Source: Acidimicrobiaceae bacterium
Lineage (GTDB): Bacteria; Actinomycetota; Acidimicrobiia; Acidimicrobiales; RAAP-2
DNA length: 64,000 nucleotides
Direction: 5' to 3'
NCBI GenBank assembly: GCA_027306585.1
Contig: DAHUZJ010000104.1
Location: 57,499-121,498, forward strand
The stretch's first letter is position 1. Every line of letters begins with the position of its first letter. Below the pieces are notes generated by a model. It worked only from the letters and a program-made list of their open reading frames with translations, was not told the origin of the DNA and did no database searches. Of this stretch, positions 46,160 to 56,462 are shown piece by piece. The position numbers and the translations under genes are program-made.

Positions 46160-47509
46160 ATCACGACCAGGCGCGACCGGTTCCGCTACGACGGCTACGA
46201 GCTCGACCTGGCGCGCCACCGCCTCACCTGCCGGTACCGGCTCGGTGACCGCCGGTTCACCGAGGAGATCGCCATCGAGGTGCCGGCGGGTGCACCGCCG
46301 GCTCCGCCCGAGGCAGCCGATGCCGCCGCCCGCCTGGTGCACCTCCTCGGCGGGGTCTCGTACTACAAGACGGCGGCACCCCCCGTCATCGACCTGGGCG
46401 ACCTCGCCACCACGGGCGCCGAACGGTCGTTCCTCCGCACCTACTACGTCGACGGCCTCGGCGAGATGGCGCACCGCAATGGACTGGACCTCTCCGGCCT
46501 CGAGGTCGTGGGCCCGGATCTCGGGCAGCGGGTGCCGGCCGCCTGCACCCCGGCGGCAGGGCGTCCGCTCGTGCCCTTCGGCGGGGGCATCGACTCGGTC
46601 GTCACGGCCGAGGAGGTCCGCGCCGTCCACCCCGACACCACCCTCTTCGTGGTGAGCCGGCCGGGCGACCGGTTCGCCGCCCTGGAGGCGGCGCTCGACG
46701 CCACCGGGCTGCCCGTGGTGCGGGCCGAACGGCGCATCGACGACGCCGTGCTCCGCTCGACCGAGCAGGGCTTCCTCAACGGTCATGTGCCGGTGACCGG
46801 CATCCTTTCGGCGGTCGCCATCCTGGCGGCGGTCCTCGGCGGCCACGACGCGGTCGTCATGGCCAACGAGTGGTCGGCCTCCTCGGCCACCCTCCACGTC
46901 GGCGGCCGTGCCGTGAACCACCAGTGGTCCAAGGGCCTGGCGTTCGAGCGGGGCTTCCGGGAGCTGGTGACGGCCGCGCTCGGCACCGGCGTCGACTACT
47001 TCTCCCTGTTGCGGCCGCGCTCGGAGCTGTGGGTGGCCGAGCGGTTCGCCCGGCTCCCCCGGTACCACCGGGCGTTCTGCAGCTGCAACCGGGCGTTCAT
47101 CATCGACCCGGCGCGGCGGCTCGACCGGTGGTGCGGCACGTGCGACAAGTGCTGCTTCATCGACCTGGTGCTGGCGCCGTTCCTCGACCCGGCAACGCTG
47201 TCGGGCGTGTTCGAAGGTGACGAGCCGCTGGCACGAGGGGAGCTCGACGGACGTTTCCGGGGGCTCGTCGGGTTGGGGGAGGCGAAGCCGTTCGAGTGCG
47301 TCGGCGACGTCGAGGAGTCCCGGGCCGCCCTGACCCTCGCTGCCGCCCGGCCCGACCGTGCCGGCACGCCGCTCCTCCAGGCGCTGGCGCGCGAGGTGGG
47401 GCCGGCGGCGGCGACCCGGGGCTGGGCCGGCCTGTTGGGCGAGCACTTCGTGCCGGCCGAGTACCTGGCCGGTGCCGCCGGGGCGGGTGGCAGCGGGGTG
47501 GGCGGGTGA
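46160..47509 (+). CDS. murL: UDP-N-acetylmuramoyl-L-alanyl-L-glutamate epimerase-like protein (MurL-like)
   Basis: SYYKTAAPPVIDLGDLATTGAERSFLRTYYVDGLGEMAHRNGLDL...PLVPFGGGIDSVVTAEEV...MANEWSASSATLHVGGRAVNHQWSKGLAFERGFRELV...AFCSCNRAF...RWCGTCDKCCFIDLVLAPFL; next to a MurD homolog. First canonical start is GTG 46280, but convincing coding extends about 40 codons upstream, possibly to ATC 46160. Confidence 0.78.
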   Translation: MTTRRDRFRYDGYELDLARHRLTCRYRLGDRRFTEEIAIEVPAGAPPAPPEAADAAARLVHLLGGVSYYKTAAPPVIDLGDLATTGAERSFLRTYYVDGLGEMAHRNGLDLSGLEVVGPDLGQRVPAACTPAAGRPLVPFGGGIDSVVTAEEVRAVHPDTTLFVVSRPGDRFAALEAALDATGLPVVRAERRIDDAVLRSTEQGFLNGHVPVTGILSAVAILAAVLGGHDAVVMANEWSASSATLHVGGRAVNHQWSKGLAFERGFRELVTAALGTGVDYFSLLRPRSELWVAERFARLPRYHRAFCSCNRAFIIDPARRLDRWCGTCDKCCFIDLVLAPFLDPATLSGVFEGDEPLARGELDGRFRGLVGLGEAKPFECVGDVEESRAALTLAAARPDRAGTPLLQALAREVGPAAATRGWAGLLGEHFVPAEYLAGAAGAGGSGVGG

Positions 47510-49002
47510 CGCCCGCCGGCCGCCCCACACCGTCGGTGCTCGCACCGGCGCCGGCGATCGGCTGGTCCGACCTGGCCGGTGCTGCCGTGGGCATCTGGGG
47601 GGTCGGGGTCGAGGGCGGCGCCAGCCTGCGGCGGCTGCGGGCGCTCGGGGCCACCCCCGTCCTGGTCGACGACCGCCCGCCCTCCTCGACGGTCGGCGGG
47701 CTCCCGGTCCTCCCGACCACCGAGGGCGGCCTGGAGGCGCTCGCCCGCTGCGACGTCGTGGTGAAGTCCCCCGGGATCAGCCGTCACCGCCCGGACGTCG
47801 TCGAGCTGGCCGCTCGAGGCGTGGCCGTGGCGGGCGGGCTCGGGCTCTGGCTGCAGGAGACCGACCGGGACCGGGTGCTGTGCGTGACGGGCACCAAGGG
47901 CAAGAGCACCACGACGGCCGTCGCCGCCCATCTCCTCACCGCCCTCGGGGTGCGGGCTCGGACGGCCGGCAACTTCGGCCTGCCGCCGTGGGACCCCCAA
48001 GGTGGCGACGACCCGGTCGACTACTGGGTGGTCGAGGTCTCGAGCTTCCAGGCGACCGACCTCGCCGCCGCGCCGCCGGTGGTGGCCGTCACCTCGCTCG
48101 GCGCGGACCACCTCGACTGGCACGGGGACCTCGACGCGTACTACCGGGACAAGCTGTCGCTCTGCACCCGCCCGGGCGCCCGGCTGACCGTGGCCGACGG
48201 CTCGAGCGACGCGCTGCGGACCCATCGGGCCCTGCTCGGGCAGGAGGTCCGCTGGGTGGCGGTGGGCGACCCCGACCTCGACGGACCCTGGGCCGACGGC
48301 CTCGGACTGCTCGGGGCCCACAACCGCCGCAATGCCCTGGTGGCGCGAGCCTGCCTCGAGGCCCTCGGCGTGCCGCGTGCCGGCGACGACCCTGCGCTCG
48401 CCCGGGCGGCCGCCGGGTTCACCGGGCTCGACAGCCGACTGCGGCGCCTCGGCACGGTGGCCGGTGTCGAGTTCGTCGACGACAGCCTCTCGACCAACGT
48501 GCTGCCCACCCTCGCCGCCCTGGACGCCTTCGCCGGCCGGCGCCTCGCACTGCTGGCCGGCGGCTACGACCGGGGGATCGACTACGCGCCCCTCGCCGCC
48601 CGGCTGCTGGCACGCGCCGAGCCGACCTTCCTGGCCACCCTGCCGGCGAGTGGCGCCCGCATCCGGACGGCGCTCGCCGGGACGGCGGGTGGCGCCGGGG
48701 GCTCGGTGCCCGCCTCCGACCCCGCCGGCGGCTCGGCGCTGACCGTGGTGGACGCCCCCGACGTGGCGGCGGCCACCGAGTCGGCGTTCGCCTGGGCCCG
48801 CCCGGACGGCGTCGTGCTCCTGTCCCCCGCCGCCCCCAGCTTCGGGCAGTTCCGCGACTACCGGGAGCGGGCGGCCGCCTTCGCCGAGGCGATGGCCGCG
48901 TGCGCCGCCCTGCCGGGCGTCGCCGGCGAGGGCCACCGCGTCACGGCTGGGGGAGCAGGACGTGGGGGTTCAGGATCCCGTCGGGGTCCAGCGCCCGCTT
49001 GA
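47506..49002 (+). CDS. UDP-N-acetylmuramoyl-L-alanine--(L-)glutamate ligase, MurD2-like Mur ligase
   Basis: VLCVTGTKGKSTTTAVAAHLL; VEVSSFQATDL; SLGADHLDWHGDLDAYYRDK; GLDSRLRRLGTVAGVEFVDDSLSTNVLPTLAALDAFAGRRLALLAGGYDRGIDY; GTGA overlap with the murL-like gene. Confidence 0.85.
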   Translation: MTPAGRPTPSVLAPAPAIGWSDLAGAAVGIWGVGVEGGASLRRLRALGATPVLVDDRPPSSTVGGLPVLPTTEGGLEALARCDVVVKSPGISRHRPDVVELAARGVAVAGGLGLWLQETDRDRVLCVTGTKGKSTTTAVAAHLLTALGVRARTAGNFGLPPWDPQGGDDPVDYWVVEVSSFQATDLAAAPPVVAVTSLGADHLDWHGDLDAYYRDKLSLCTRPGARLTVADGSSDALRTHRALLGQEVRWVAVGDPDLDGPWADGLGLLGAHNRRNALVARACLEALGVPRAGDDPALARAAAGFTGLDSRLRRLGTVAGVEFVDDSLSTNVLPTLAALDAFAGRRLALLAGGYDRGIDYAPLAARLLARAEPTFLATLPASGARIRTALAGTAGGAGGSVPASDPAGGSALTVVDAPDVAAATESAFAWARPDGVVLLSPAAPSFGQFRDYRERAAAFAEAMAACAALPGVAGEGHRVTAGGAGRGGSGSRRGPAPA

Positions 49003-50353
49003 CGGCGGCGAAGGCCGCGAGCTCGGCGGGGCTGCGGTTGAGGTGCAACCAATGGGCCTTGGCGGTCCCGATCCCGTGCTCGGCGCTGATGGACCCGCCT
49101 CGCTCGACGACCGCCCGGAGGACGGCGTCGTCGACGGTCTCGTCGTCGGGGTCGGGCCCGGTCACGTTGACGTGCACGTTGCCGTCGGCCACGTGCCCGT
49201 ACAGCCAGGTGCGGGCGCCCGGTGCCACCGCCGCCACGACGGCGGGCACCTCCGCCACGAACGCCGCCAGCTCGCCGAAGGGAAGGGTCACGTCCAGCTT
49301 GTGGGGCGGCACGCCGACCGCGTTGACCGCCTCGGGCTGCGCCTCCCGGTAGCGCCACAGAGCACGGGCGCGCGGGGCCTCGGTCCCGACGGCCGCGTCC
49401 GCCAGGCCCTCGACGGAGCCCACCGCCTCGACGAGGGCGGCCGTCGGATCGGTCGGTCCCGACACCTCCAGGAGCAGGTAGGCGTCGTGGGGCTCGGGGA
49501 AGGGTGCCGGGAGGCCGGACGTGGCGCACACCAGCTCCATGCCGGGCCCGAGGAGGAACTCGGCCGCCGAGAGGTCGGGGAGCTCCCGGCGGACGCCGAG
49601 CGCCGTCGCCACCATCCGCCCCACCGCGTCGTCACCGTCGAAGGCGAGGAGCGCCACCACCGAGGCCGGTGACGGGGGCACCAACCGCAACCGTACGGCG
49701 GTCACCACCCCGAGCGTCCCCTCGCTCCCGCACAGCAACGGCGCCAGTGCGTAGCCGGTGTTGTCCTTGAGCAGCCCGCCCAGGTGGGACACGACGGCGC
49801 CCGTCCCCAGGACGGCCTCGACCCCGAGCACCTGCGCCCGGGTGTCGCCGTAGCGCAGGAGGCGCAGGCCGCCGGCGTTGGTCCCGACGTTGCCGCCGAT
49901 CGTGGCGCTGTCCCGGGCGCCCAGGTCGACCCCGTAGGTCCACCCGGCGGCCTCGGCGCCCGCCCGCAGGTCGCCGAGCGTCACCCCCGCCCCGGCGGTC
50001 ACCTGTCCGGCCTGCCGGTCCACCTCCCCGAGCCCGGACAGGCGCCGGAGGCTGAGCACCACCTCACCGTGGAGCGGGACGCCGCCGCCGACCAAGCCGG
50101 TGTTGCCACCCTGGGGGACCAGGGGGGCACCGTGGCGGCGGCACGCCGCCACCACCCCGGCGACCTCGTCGGTCGTGCCGGGCCGGACCACGACCCCCGT
50201 TGCGCCCTTGAACCGTCCCGTCCAGTCCACGGCGTAGCTCGCCACCACCTCGGGGTCGGTGAGCACGTGCGGGTGACCGACCACCTCGGCCAGGTCGGCC
50301 AGGAGGGCCGGGGCGGCGGCGTCGACGACGTCGGTGGTGTCGGCGGGTTCCAC
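48941..50353 (-). CDS. FAD-binding oxidoreductase/transferase type 4 (GlcD/D-2-hydroxyglutarate dehydrogenase-like)
   Basis: GVVVRPGTTDEVAGVVAACRRHGAPLVPQGGNTGLVGGGVPLHGEVVLSLRRL...GARDSATIGGNVGTNAGGLRLLRYG...HVADGNVHVNV...GSISAEHGIG...KRALDPDGILNPHVLL. Converges with murD2 over 62 nt. Confidence 0.93.
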   Translation of the reverse strand: MEPADTTDVVDAAAPALLADLAEVVGHPHVLTDPEVVASYAVDWTGRFKGATGVVVRPGTTDEVAGVVAACRRHGAPLVPQGGNTGLVGGGVPLHGEVVLSLRRLSGLGEVDRQAGQVTAGAGVTLGDLRAGAEAAGWTYGVDLGARDSATIGGNVGTNAGGLRLLRYGDTRAQVLGVEAVLGTGAVVSHLGGLLKDNTGYALAPLLCGSEGTLGVVTAVRLRLVPPSPASVVALLAFDGDDAVGRMVATALGVRRELPDLSAAEFLLGPGMELVCATSGLPAPFPEPHDAYLLLEVSGPTDPTAALVEAVGSVEGLADAAVGTEAPRARALWRYREAQPEAVNAVGVPPHKLDVTLPFGELAAFVAEVPAVVAAVAPGARTWLYGHVADGNVHVNVTGPDPDDETVDDAVLRAVVERGGSISAEHGIGTAKAHWLHLNRSPAELAAFAAVKRALDPDGILNPHVLLPQP

Positions 50354-50490
50354 GACGGCGCAGCGTACCTCTGTGCCGGGGATCGGCCGTCCCGTGCCGG
50401 ACGGCGACCGGCGGGGGCGGGACCGGACGGGGTCGGACGGATCGGGGGGGCGCCCCACGAGGCTCGGTGGGCGCTCGGGGCCTGACGCGC

Positions 50491-50578: not shown

Positions 50579-50626
50579 GTGCCGAACATGCCGAACATGC
50601 CGAACATGCCGAACATGCCGAACATG
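50579..50626. repeat. 9-bp tandem repeat (ATGCCGAAC; about 5 copies, first copy GTGCCGAAC)
   Basis: GTGCCGAACATGCCGAACATGCCGAACATGCCGAACATGCCGAACATGCC; every unit carries an in-frame start codon. Confidence 0.97.
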
Positions 50627-51673
50627 CCCCCACCCCACCCCACCCCGCCCCGGATCGCCTACACCGAGCGCCTGGTCACCTTGCTCACCGACGCCACCGG
50701 AGCCCTGCACGACCTCGGCGGCCACGCCCGCCTGGTCCCCGACGCCCGGCTCGCCGGCGCCGCCGCGATCGTCGACACGGCGACCCGGTGCGCTGCTCTG
50801 GACGGCGACCGCGTGGGCGCCGTCGACCTCCTCCGGTTCGAGGCCGGCGACACGCTGGGCCCTGCGGGTGCGGATCGTGACGGCCCCTTGGCGGCCACGG
50901 CCCGCGGGGCCGCCGACCGGGCCGCCGCCCTGCGGCTCGGTCTCGACCGCCTTGCAGAGGGCGCCCCGCTCGACGGCGCCCTCCTGTGGGCGGTCCGGTG
51001 TCGCCTGGACGGCGGCGCCACTGCTGGGCCAGCGGCGTCGGCGGTGACGGCGGGAACGGCGGCCACTGCGGCTTGGCGGAAGCTGGCGCGGCTCCTCGGC
51101 GACGGCTCGCTGCCCCTGCTGGTCCGCCTGGCGCTGGCGCAGCGCCGCCTCGGCCCCGGGTCGGGCGATGACCAGCGGATGGGCCCGCTGCTGCCGACGC
51201 TCGCGCTACGGGCGGGCGGCGTGCTGGCCGAGCCGGTCCTCCGGCTGCCGGTGCACCATACCGACCGGCGCCGGGAGTACCGGGCGTGCCTCGCCGCCGG
51301 CGACCCCGAGCGCTGGGTGCGGTACTTCCTCGACGCCGTCCGCACCCAGGCGGAGGCCGACGGACGGTGGGTCCTCGGCCTGCGACGACGGCGGGAGGAG
51401 ACGGCCGAGGAGCTGCGGAAGGGCCGTGCCTCCCGGGCGGCCATCGCCGCGGCAGCCCAGCTGCTGGCCCGGCCGTACCTGTCGGCGACGACGCTCGCGG
51501 CCGACCTGGGCGTCAGCCTGCCGACGGCCCGGGCGGCCATCGAGCAACTGGTCGCGGCGGGGGAGCTGGTCGAGCAGACGAACCGGCGCCGTGACCGCTT
51601 CTACGTGGCGCCCTGCCTCGTCGCCGAGCTCTTCGGCACGAGCGAGAGCCTGGGAGGGGACTCGAACCCCTGA
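50579..51673 (+). CDS. Fic-family-like protein with degenerate catalytic core and C-terminal winged-helix domain
   Basis: LARLLGDGSLPLLVRLALAQRRLGPGSGDDQRMGPLLPTLALRAGGVLAEPVLRLPVHHTDRRREYRACLAAGDPERWVRYFLDAVRTQA...LLARPYLSATTLAADLGVSLPTARAAIEQLVAAGELVEQTNRRRDRFYVAP follows the Fic C-terminal layout, but HPFxxGNGR is absent. True start among repeated ATGs unknown. Confidence 0.68.
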   Translation: MPNMPNMPNMPNMPNMPPPHPTPPRIAYTERLVTLLTDATGALHDLGGHARLVPDARLAGAAAIVDTATRCAALDGDRVGAVDLLRFEAGDTLGPAGADRDGPLAATARGAADRAAALRLGLDRLAEGAPLDGALLWAVRCRLDGGATAGPAASAVTAGTAATAAWRKLARLLGDGSLPLLVRLALAQRRLGPGSGDDQRMGPLLPTLALRAGGVLAEPVLRLPVHHTDRRREYRACLAAGDPERWVRYFLDAVRTQAEADGRWVLGLRRRREETAEELRKGRASRAAIAAAAQLLARPYLSATTLAADLGVSLPTARAAIEQLVAAGELVEQTNRRRDRFYVAPCLVAELFGTSESLGGDSNP

Positions 51674-51719
51674 CCTGCGCATTACGAATGCGCTGCTCTA
51701 CCGGCTGAGCTACCCAGGC
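51647..51719 (-). tRNA. tRNA-Thr (anticodon CGT)
   Basis: Minus strand GCCTGGGTAGCTCAGCCGGTAGAGCAGCGCATTCGTAATGCGCAGGTCAGGGGTTCGAGTCCCCTCCCAGGC: full cloverleaf, loop TTCGTAA, 7-bp acceptor, no encoded CCA. Confidence 0.96.
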
Positions 51720-51790: not shown

Positions 51791-52930
51791 TCAGCCGCCG
51801 AGACGGCCGAGCCGCACCAGGAGGGCCTCGAGCAGCAGCGCCTCGTTCGGGTTGCGACGGAGGGCGGCGGTTGCCTCCGTGACCAGCGCAACCGCCTCAC
51901 CGTGCCCGCGCACCTCGTCGGGGACGCCGGACGCCGCCAGGGCGCCGAAGCGGCCCCCGTAGGCGCGGGCCAACATCCCGAGCCCTGAGCGGAGCTCCTC
52001 GGTGCGCCACCGGCGCTCCTCGCGGTGTTGGCGGTCCGTGATCTCCTTGCGGCCCGGCAGACCACGCTCGCCCAGCGACGAAGCCTCGTCGGTCAGCGCC
52101 GCCAGCTCTTCGGCGTGGCGGGCCCGCAGCGGCCCGAGGGCGTCGTCGACGCCGGCCAGCAGCTCACGTGCCAGGGCGCGGGCCGTGGCCCCGTGGCCGT
52201 CGAGGCGACCGGGCACCGACCGCCAGCGTGCCGCCCGCTCGTCGAACCCGGGGTCCTCGGCCAGCAGCCGGGCCCGGTCCAGGTCGCCGCCCGCTCCCTC
52301 GGCCACCAGGGACGCCTGGTCGGGCGACGTACCTCGAGCGACCAGCCACTCCGCCACGGCCGCCGCAGGGACCGGCGGGAACGGCACCTCGACGCAGCGG
52401 CTGGCCACCGTCACGAGCTCCGGGGGGAGGTCGTCGGCCAGCAGCACGAAGACAGTGGCCGGCGGCGGCTCCTCGACGGTCTTGAGCAGCGCCGGCGCCG
52501 AGCGAACAGCGAGGTGGACATCGGTCACCACGAGCACCTGGCGCTCCGCCTCGAACGGGCGCCGTTGGGCCAGGCCCACCAGGCGCCGGGCGTCGTCGAT
52601 GCCGAGCGCGGCGCCGGTGCGCTCCACCAGCACGACGTCGGGGTGGGTGCCCGCGAGTGCCCGGCGGCACGTGTCGCACGTCCCGCACCCGCCGTCCGGA
52701 CAGAGGAGCGCGGCTGCGAACGCCAGGGACGCCGGACGGCTGCCGCTGCCCGTCGGCCCTCGGAAGAGGTAGGCGTGCACCGGGTGGCGGGCCGCAGCAC
52801 GCAGCGACGCCACCGCCGCCGGTTGGCCGACGACCTCGGCGAAGAGGGCGGCCACCGGGTGGCGACGCGGCTCGTCGTCGTCGGCGAGGTCCGGGGCGGC
52901 GGCGGGGTCCGGAGCCCCGGCGGCGGTCAC
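51791..52930 (-). CDS. holB: DNA polymerase III subunit delta'
   Basis: VVGQPAAVASLRAAARHPVHAYLFRGPTGSGSRPASLAFAAALLCPDGGCGTCDTCRRALAGTHPDV...LLKTVEEPPPATVFVLLADDLPPELVTVASRC. Confidence 0.95.
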   Translation of the reverse strand: MTAAGAPDPAAAPDLADDDEPRRHPVAALFAEVVGQPAAVASLRAAARHPVHAYLFRGPTGSGSRPASLAFAAALLCPDGGCGTCDTCRRALAGTHPDVVLVERTGAALGIDDARRLVGLAQRRPFEAERQVLVVTDVHLAVRSAPALLKTVEEPPPATVFVLLADDLPPELVTVASRCVEVPFPPVPAAAVAEWLVARGTSPDQASLVAEGAGGDLDRARLLAEDPGFDERAARWRSVPGRLDGHGATARALARELLAGVDDALGPLRARHAEELAALTDEASSLGERGLPGRKEITDRQHREERRWRTEELRSGLGMLARAYGGRFGALAASGVPDEVRGHGEAVALVTEATAALRRNPNEALLLEALLVRLGRLGG

Positions 52931-53550: not shown

Positions 53551-56462
53551 CCGCCGTCGTCGGCGACGGACCCGTTCGAGCTGGCGGGTGGCGGCGCCGC
53601 CTTCTTGGCCGCCGCCTTCTTGGCCGTGGCCTTCTTGGCCGCCGCCTTCTTGGCGGTCGCCTTCTTGGCCGTGGCCTTCTTGGCGGTGGCCTTCTTGGCG
53701 GTGGCCTTCTTGGCGCCCCGCCGGGTCGCGGGTCCAGCCGCCCGCCGGTCCGCCAGCAGCTCGCCTGCGCGCTCGATGGTGATGGTCTGGGGATCGTCCC
53801 CCTTGCGCAACGAGGCGTTGGTCGTGCCGTCCGTCACGTACGGCCCGAAACGCCCCTCCCGCACGACAACAGGCAGGCCGGTGCCCGGGTCCGCGCCGAG
53901 CTCCCGCAGCGGCCCCGCGGCGGCACCGCGGCCACGACGGGTCTTGGGCTGCTGGAAGACGGCGCATGCCTCGTCGAGAGTGACGGTGAGGAGCTGCTCC
54001 TCGCTGGCGAGACTGCGGGTGTCGTTGCCGCGCTTCAGGTACGGACCGAAGCGCCCGTTGTGGGCGACGATCTCCTCGCCGGTGACCGGGTCCGTGCCCA
54101 CCACACGGGGGATCCGCAACAGGTCCAGCGCCTGCTCGAGGGTGACGGTGGTCGGCGTCATGGATGCGAAGAGCGACGCCGTCCGTGGCTTCGGCCCGCC
54201 CTCCACCACGTCGCCCAGCTGGACGTAGGGCCCGTACCGCCCGGCGCGCACGCGCACGGCCTCCCCCGTCTCCGGGTCGGTCCCGAGCTCGCGATCGTTC
54301 GACGGCGCCGCCAGCAGCTCCTCGGCCCGTGTGACGCTGAGCTCGTCGGGGGCGAGGTCGTCGGGGATCGACGCCCGCTCCTCGCCGCGCTGGAGGTACG
54401 GGCCGTAGCGGCCGACGCGCACGACGATCGGGTTGCCGTCGGCGTCGGTGCCGATGGGGATGGAGTTGATCTCCCGGGCGTCGATGTCCGCGAGATGGGT
54501 GGCGACCGCCCCCTTGAGCCCGAGGCGACTGGTCGGTCCACCACCGGGCCCGATCCCCACGCCGGGCTCGCTCGAGCCGCCCGCGGTGCCGGCCGGGGCA
54601 GGGGGGCCGCCCGAGCCGTTGCCCCGCGGCCCCCCGAAGTAGAAGCGGGTGAGCCACGGGAGGACCTCTTCGCGGCCACTGGCGATCTCGTCGAGGTCGT
54701 CCTCCATGGCAGCGGTGAAGTTGTAGTCGACGAGGTCGGGGAAGTACCGCTCGAGGAGGCCGACCACGGCGAATGCGGTGAAGCTCGGCACGAGCGCCGA
54801 CCCCTTCTTCCACACGTAGCCGCGGTCGAGAATGGTGGCGATGACGCTGGCATAGGTGGATGGCCGGCCCACACCCAGCTCCTCCATGGCCTTCACCAGC
54901 GATGCCTCCGTGTAGCGGGCCGGCGGCTGGGTGGCGTGCGAGCCGGGCTCGAGCTCGAGTGCCTCCACCTCGTCGCCCTCGGCGAGCGGCGGCAACACCA
55001 CCTCCCGGTCGGCCAGCTCGGCCTCGGGGTCGTCCTCGCCCTCGACGTAGGCACGCAAGAACCCGGGGAAGGCGATCACCCGCCCGCTCGCCGACAGCTC
55101 GGCCTCGGCGCCGGGCAGCACGGGGGCATCGGCCGGCATGCGTCCGGCCAGGCGCACCTGGGCGCTCGTCCCGGTGGCGTCCGCCATCTGCGACGCGATC
55201 GTGCGCTTCCAGATCAGCTCGTACAGGCGCAGCTCGTCCCCCGACAGCGAGCGCGCCGCCTGCTCGGGGGTCCGGAACGAGTCGCCGGCGGGGCGGATGG
55301 CCTCGTGGGCCTCCTGGGCGTTCTTCACCTTGCGCTCGTAACGCCGCGGGGCGTCGGGCACGTAGCGGGCCCCGTACAGGGAGGTGGCCTGCGAGCGCGC
55401 CGCCCGCAGCGCCTCGTCCGACAGCGTGGTCGAGTCGGTCCGCATGTAGGTGATCCAGCCCTGCTCGTACAAGCGCTGGGCCACCTGCATGGCGCGCTGG
55501 GAGCTGAAGCGCAGCTTGCGACCGGCCTCCTGCTGGAGGGTGGAGGTCATGAACGGGGGCGCCGGGGAGCGGCGGAACGGCCGCTCCGTGACCGACCGCA
55601 CGGTGAAGTCGCGGTGGGCCAGGCCGGCGGCGAGGGCACGGGCCTCCTCCTCGACGAGAACCCGCACCGCCTCGGTGCCGCCCACGCGGCCCTCGGCGTC
55701 GAAGTTGCGCCCGGTGGCCACGGACGTCCGGTCCAGGGTCACCAGCGTGGCGGTGAAGGTGGCGGGGGCCGCCGCGTCCACCCCGGTGTCCGCCGGCGCG
55801 GCGGACCCGACCCTGCGGGCAGCCGGGGCGGCCAGCGTGGCCTCCACCCCCCACCACGTGGCCGACCGGAACCGCATGCGGGCCCGCTCCCGCTCCACCA
55901 CCATGCGCGTCGCCACGCTCTGCACCCGGCCGGCCGAGAGCCGCGGCATGACCTTCTTCCACAGCACCGGCGAGACCTCGTAGCCGTAGAGGCGGTCGAG
56001 GATGCGACGGGCCTCCTGGGCGTCGACCAGGCGGCGGTCGAGGTCGCGCCACTCCTCCACCGCCCGCCGGATGGCACCCGGGGTGATCTCGTGGAACACC
56101 ATCCGCTTCACGGGGACCCGGGGCGACAGGACCTCGGTCAGGTGCCACGCGATGGACTCGCCCTCGCGGTCCTCGTCGGTGGCGAGGTAGACCTCGTCGG
56201 CGTCCTTGAGGAGCCGCTTGAGGTTGGCCACCACCGACCTCTTCGCCGCCGACACGACGTAGAGGGGCTTGAAGCCGTTGTCCACGTCGACCCCGAGCCG
56301 CGCCCAGTCCTCACCCTTGAACGCGGCCGGGACCTCGTCGGCACCGCGGGGCAGGTCCCGGACGTGGCCGATGGACGACTCGACGACGAAGTCGGGCCCC
56401 AGCATCCCCGCGATGGTCCGGGCCTTGGCCGGGGACTCCACGATGACCAGCGCCTTACCCAT
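53547..56462 (-). CDS. topA: DNA topoisomerase I with Lys/Ala-rich C-terminal tail
   Basis: [38 protein letters not shown]...[15 protein letters not shown]...[17 protein letters not shown]...; C-terminal [39 protein letters not shown]. Confidence 0.98.
53597..53722. repeat. 15-bp tandem repeats coding the Top[11 protein letters not shown] tail
   Basis: Repeated CTTCTTGGCCGTGGC / CTTCTTGGCGGTGGC / CTTCTTGGCCGCCGC units on the plus strand. Confidence 0.95.

Follow-up and report, generated by a model that had tools for sequence, protein, structure and literature searches.

A Fic-like protein with a retained winged helix and lost catalytic motif: a candidate DNA-binding regulator in an Acidimicrobiaceae bacterium

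Fic enzymes attach AMP to proteins, and class II members carrying a winged helix are common. To our knowledge, the purpose of the winged helix in class II Fic has been tested in a few proteins only.

CccR of Yersinia pseudotuberculosis, a class II Fic with a C-terminal HTH, represses its own promoter via palindromes and needs dimerisation (PMC9755527). The class II Fic CbFic2 of Coxiella burnetii (PDB 8cil) has a winged helix-turn-helix (wHTH) that binds DNA at nanomolar affinity, and its (de)AMPylation is stimulated by DNA binding (PMC10628234). Dimerisation through N-terminal elements has been described for CccR and for CbFic2/SoFic (PMC9755527, PMC10628234), SoFic (SO_4266; PDB 3eqx, 3zcn; NF046030) being a catalytic adenylyltransferase with an inhibitory helix. 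A degenerate core motif occurs in the class I protein Fic2 of Campylobacter fetus, which is toxic, keeps its histidine and pairs with Fic1 (PMC5651007), while AvrB, a plant-targeted effector of the Fido superfamily that contains an inserted domain and has no wHTH, lacks HPFx(D/E)GN(G/K)R, keeps the fold and binds ADP (PMC2686095).

The locus described here lies in a stretch of 64,000 nucleotides (contig DAHUZJ010000104.1) from the genome of a soil-type actinobacterium of the Acidimicrobiaceae, the whole stretch being referred to as the window. It encodes a Fic-like protein, here called pseudo-Fic. CccR, as an autorepressor, has been taken as its working model, although CccR is still catalytic and retains both the inhibitory helix and the N-terminal dimer contacts (PMC9755527), and both CbFic2 and SoFic are catalytic. 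Pseudo-Fic shares with C. fetus Fic2 a degenerate core motif and an intact Fic in the same genome, and with AvrB a Fic-like fold without the canonical motif; however, the histidine that Fic2 keeps is gone, and the wHTH that AvrB lacks is present. In our judgement pseudo-Fic is probably, though by no means surely, a catalytically dead class II Fic-wHTH protein exapted as a DNA-binding transcriptional regulator, its DNA binding, repression, target and oligomeric state all being presumed. CccR and CbFic2 have already shown that catalytic Fic-wHTH proteins can bind DNA, and what is new here is a natural variant without catalysis. If the proposal is true, the regulatory function can stand alone, which would make this a clean case of a former enzyme now serving as a gene switch.

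Homology, predicted fold and lost motifs

A search of 1,463 genomes, in samples of the family, order, class and phylum, gathered about 90 homologues. By both BLASTP and HMM comparison, pseudo-Fic is homologous over its full length to class II Fic proteins that carry a winged helix at the C-terminus, and it shares their domain order. The closest homologues found, three proteins from the same order (L133, L135 and L136), share this domain order and the wHTH and align over the full length at 35-38% identity, the best BLASTP match having E = 8e-49 over residues 1-335 or beyond at 35% identity. An HMM built from 56 homologues, with the query left out, matched the pseudo-Fic frame at E = 4.7e-46 and no other frame of the locus. 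Full-length homology in a single frame rules out a chance ORF in a GC-rich genome, and the lack of homology in the other frames rules out hidden frameshift pairs as the cause of the lost motif. The NCBIfam SoFic model (NF046030) matched the C-terminal half at E = 5.7e-8 (32 bits, where the cutoff is 550), and the Fic protein of PDB 9vjc matched at E = 1.6e-8. These matches bear out the sequence-only reading of the frame as Fic-like, while the Pfam comparison it had proposed gave a divided answer: Fic (PF02661) and Fic_N (PF13784) found no match in pseudo-Fic, although its residues 1-118 still align, and both matched strongly in the two sister proteins scanned (L133 and L136), which are class II Fic proteins of the ordinary kind. 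The Pfam matches of pseudo-Fic itself are weak and confined to HTH families, among them HTH_11 at 3e-4, below Pfam's cutoff.

Structural prediction, which had also been proposed, came out in favour of a Fic fold. With the homologue alignment, AlphaFold gave a model of pLDDT 88.3, which drops below 50 only in residues near the deleted flap and in the C-terminal tail. The best PDB match of the model was SoFic (3eqx), with a TM of 0.77 along the entire chain, wHTH included. Prediction from the single sequence, without homologues, was poor (pLDDT 41.8), and the fold assignment therefore rests on homology and core retention, not on independent prediction. On this footing the Fic fold with its C-terminal winged helix is predicted to be kept, the AlphaFold fold being driven by homologues.

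The sister proteins keep SSRIEG, the target flap PGEFRRSQNWIG, FVPPP, the catalytic motif HPFLDGNGRLGR and about 30 N-terminal residues, all of which pseudo-Fic has lost (Table 1). Absent are both HPFx(D/E)GN(G/K)R with its catalytic His and the inhibitory motif with its Glu, a hallmark of class II Fic. Around the catalytic motif pseudo-Fic reads QRR---LGPGSGDDQRMGP, against HYQFEVVHPFLDGNGRLGR in the relatives, whose target flap follows the pattern PGEFRxSxxWIG. A 4-residue loop loss and a 6-residue insertion were also found in the alignment; the query-specific indels number at least four, all of them multiples of three. Pseudo-Fic keeps 26 of the 56 columns that are at least 90% conserved in homologues, mostly structural ones, the catalytic ones being replaced or deleted; three residues of the motif region, Pro173, Arg180 and Gly182, survive.

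Table 1. Position of pseudo-Fic, its altered and retained segments, and adjacent genes within the window
Feature	Coordinates	Strand	Remarks
FAD-linked oxidase, GlcD-like	48941..50398 (putative start)	-	divergent; intergenic region of ~180 bp common with pseudo-Fic
pseudo-Fic ORF	50579..51673	+	364 aa from putative GTG start; homologue-alignable residues begin near 50636-50639
9-bp repeat TGCCGAACA, 5.4 perfect copies	50580..50628	+	encodes MPN units
CAALDG, replacing inhibitory helix motif (S/T)xxxE(G/N)	50789..50806	+	SSRIEG in sisters; alignment
In-frame deletions of target flap PGEFRRSQNWIG and FVPPP loop	51023..51058	+	~20 residues net; alignment
GPGSGDDQRMGP, replacing catalytic motif HPFLDGNGRLGR	51152..51187	+	preceding FEV also deleted; alignment
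Retained post-catalytic helices REYRACL...WVRYFLDAV	51272..51340	+	alignment, AlphaFold model
Winged helix-turn-helix, query residues 263-335	51425..51643	+	slowest-evolving part on query branch
tRNA-Thr(CGT)	51646..51719	-	overlaps last 28 bases of ORF in antisense
holB, DNA polymerase III delta'	51791..52930	-	conserved neighbour of the tRNA

Most of this had been anticipated from the letters. The by-eye alignment that placed CAALDG at the SSRIEG position and GPGSGDDQRMGP at the HPFLDGNGRLGR position was right, the proposed losses of target flap, catalytic motif and inhibitory motif are all present, with the FVPPP loop deleted in addition to the flap, and the C-terminal helical region and the wHTH that had been called intact are retained in the alignment and in the AlphaFold model, the wHTH also through its sub-threshold HTH_11 match. 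Missed at that stage was the N-terminus, where the family's first ~30 residues are gone and an (MPN)5 repeat stands in their place. This repeat carries one in-frame ATG per unit, five in total, and as an exact array it is unique in the genome, so that it is probably recent. Since it replaced the N-terminal residues of the family, the start codon is uncertain; a sequence search upstream found no clear ribosome-binding site and no consensus promoter.

The catalytic motif is kept in every other well-covered homologue fetched, the few exceptions being split frames (L166, L169, L200), fragments or non-Fic chance matches. No orthologue sharing the losses was found in the family, order, class and phylum samples, and scanning genome contigs with the pseudo-Fic protein gave no relative. 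On the genomes sampled pseudo-Fic is a solitary derivative, and as it is a singleton, any claim that the pseudo-state is conserved would have no second sequence to rest on. The three split-frame sequences are actinobacterial Fic-wHTH homologues and are possibly real pseudogenes or sequencing errors.

Genomic setting

The gene had been described as lying next to tRNA-Thr and DNA polymerase III delta'. Both are indeed near, but "next to" is inexact for the tRNA, as the last codons and stop of pseudo-Fic (51646-51673) lie within the antisense of the tRNA-Thr gene. Past tRNA-Thr follow holB, tmk and topA, while past the GlcD-like oxidase gene lie murD and a MurL-like epimerase gene. The nearest named relative by TopA is the Acidimicrobiaceae bin palsa_740 (77%), in which tmk, holB and tRNA-Thr are collinear with the window and murD is found further along. 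An assembly mix-up is ruled out, the contig's holB/tmk/topA being collinear with an Acidimicrobiaceae genome. From tRNA-Thr to murD, the genes of palsa_740 (L032:12830-18253) are unrelated ones, TetR and MFS types among them, and no Fic homologue was found at this locus in this one close relative whose contig covers the site; the conserved tRNA is therefore flanked by a variable stretch, in which pseudo-Fic lies. A phage or ICE inserted at the tRNA is ruled out, as the tRNA end occurs only once in the window.

Two further observations concern the neighbours. At 46280-49002 the MurL-like epimerase gene, whose family match is below the NCBIfam cutoff, stands directly before murD, which suggests the MurL route to D-Glu for cell-wall synthesis. 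A 15-bp tandem repeat at 53595-53714 encodes a lysine/alanine-rich KKATA tail located C-terminally in TopA.

Decay or selection

Pseudo-Fic could be a decaying pseudogene, the remnant of a Fic gene that arrived by horizontal transfer at a variable site flanking the tRNA, lost its function and is now drifting, with 74% GC keeping its frame open. In line with this, it is a singleton on a long accelerated branch (2.6 substitutions/site), erosion has left a perfect and young tandem repeat at its start, its end lies within a tRNA gene, clear expression signals were not found upstream, and stops are rare at high GC. The sequence-only reading had itself held that orthologues with an intact motif would imply such a decaying pseudogene. 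Intact homologues do exist, though none at this locus in the covering relative, and the evidence from frame, indels, core retention and region-specific rates opposes neutral decay.

GC content by codon position in the ORF is 0.83/0.60/0.92 (GC3 0.92), near the holB and glcD values, and the coding GC3 pattern is intact; the indels are all in-frame, and the homology is confined to a single frame that contains no stops. Neutral decay was simulated with the L133 gene as start, substitutions being added until similarity to reference homologues reached the query's level; since L133 takes the place of the true starting sequence, the figures are approximate. Reaching the query's divergence took ~380 changes, which introduced ~3-4 stops on average and left a probability of no stop of 0.03-0.075. 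Hydrophobic-core retention is 0.75 in pseudo-Fic versus 0.56-0.59 in the simulated sequences, whose maximum across three sets of 200 was 0.73, so that pseudo-Fic exceeds 200/200.

Regional rates were assessed by direct comparisons and by branch lengths estimated per region on a fixed tree. On the query branch the wHTH accumulated 0.77 substitutions/site (10-90% bootstrap range 0.62-0.97), a range apart from those of the N-terminal region (2.23; 1.5-3.3), the post-catalytic region (3.93; 2.5-5.1) and the flap plus catalytic region, which evolves fastest (5.37; 2.1-10). In most canonical pairs compared the trend is the opposite, the wHTH being the least conserved region. Identity to a sister is 44-45% in the wHTH versus 36-37% in the rest, a modest contrast from one sequence (Fisher p = 0.17-0.28). 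Because the simulation, in-frame indels, codon GC, branch lengths and identity point the same way when taken together, long neutral drift is unlikely, and the wHTH appears singled out as the best-kept part. Simple neutral decay is unlikely given the frame, indels, GC3, core retention and regional rates, and we regard the pseudogene explanation as a whole as improbable.

A probable regulatory role and possible other uses of the retained fold

The regulator that we favour over decay would have arisen in a lineage that lost AMP transfer, as the catalytic His, the phosphate-binding GNGR, the target flap and the inhibitory glutamate are all gone, while the helical body would have been retained as scaffold, with the winged helix under near-normal purifying selection. 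Put most simply, pseudo-Fic would have retained the DNA-binding half of a dual-function protein. It would act first on its own promoter, within the ~180-bp region common to the divergent GlcD-like oxidase gene, a candidate neighbour that is perhaps co-regulated. A search of this intergenic region found no operator above chance, the one inverted repeat upstream being at chance level. The Fic-derived DNA-binding or scaffold protein that had been suggested from the sequence is supported by homology, predicted fold and catalytic loss, its DNA binding being suggested by analogy with CccR and CbFic2. As CccR and CbFic2/SoFic dimerise N-terminally and pseudo-Fic is without its N-terminal ~30 residues, dimeric DNA binding may be impaired; the missing segment may have carried dimer contacts, whose possible loss weakens the case for a regulator.

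More tentatively, and at slightly less than even odds, a complete conversion of a protein-modifying Fic enzyme into a dedicated transcription factor can be envisaged, in which the machinery was dismantled piecewise, the fold served as scaffold, the winged helix stayed selected and the ATG-bearing tandem repeat supplied the new start.

Pseudo-Fic might instead be a non-catalytic partner or antitoxin-like protein restraining another Fic. The genome has one other Fic, an intact class II protein on contig C40 (G000:C40:655-954; L001:184-1323) with SSYIEG and HPFADGNGRVGR, and Fic1-Fic2 of C. fetus offers a precedent for an interacting pair in which one core motif is degenerate (PMC5651007). We consider this quite unlikely, since the C40 Fic and pseudo-Fic belong to different subfamilies with no BLAST match between them, their genes are on different contigs, the inhibitory motif is absent from pseudo-Fic and its wHTH is the best-preserved part. 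A Fic fold with changed activity, such as ligand or nucleotide sensing or a different chemistry, has AvrB as a precedent (PMC2686095) and is in keeping with the retained fold and the kept motif-region residues, but it is very unlikely, as the deletion of the flap, the FVPPP loop and the end of the pre-motif helix would have dismantled the target and nucleotide sites, and it is the catalytic region that evolves fastest.
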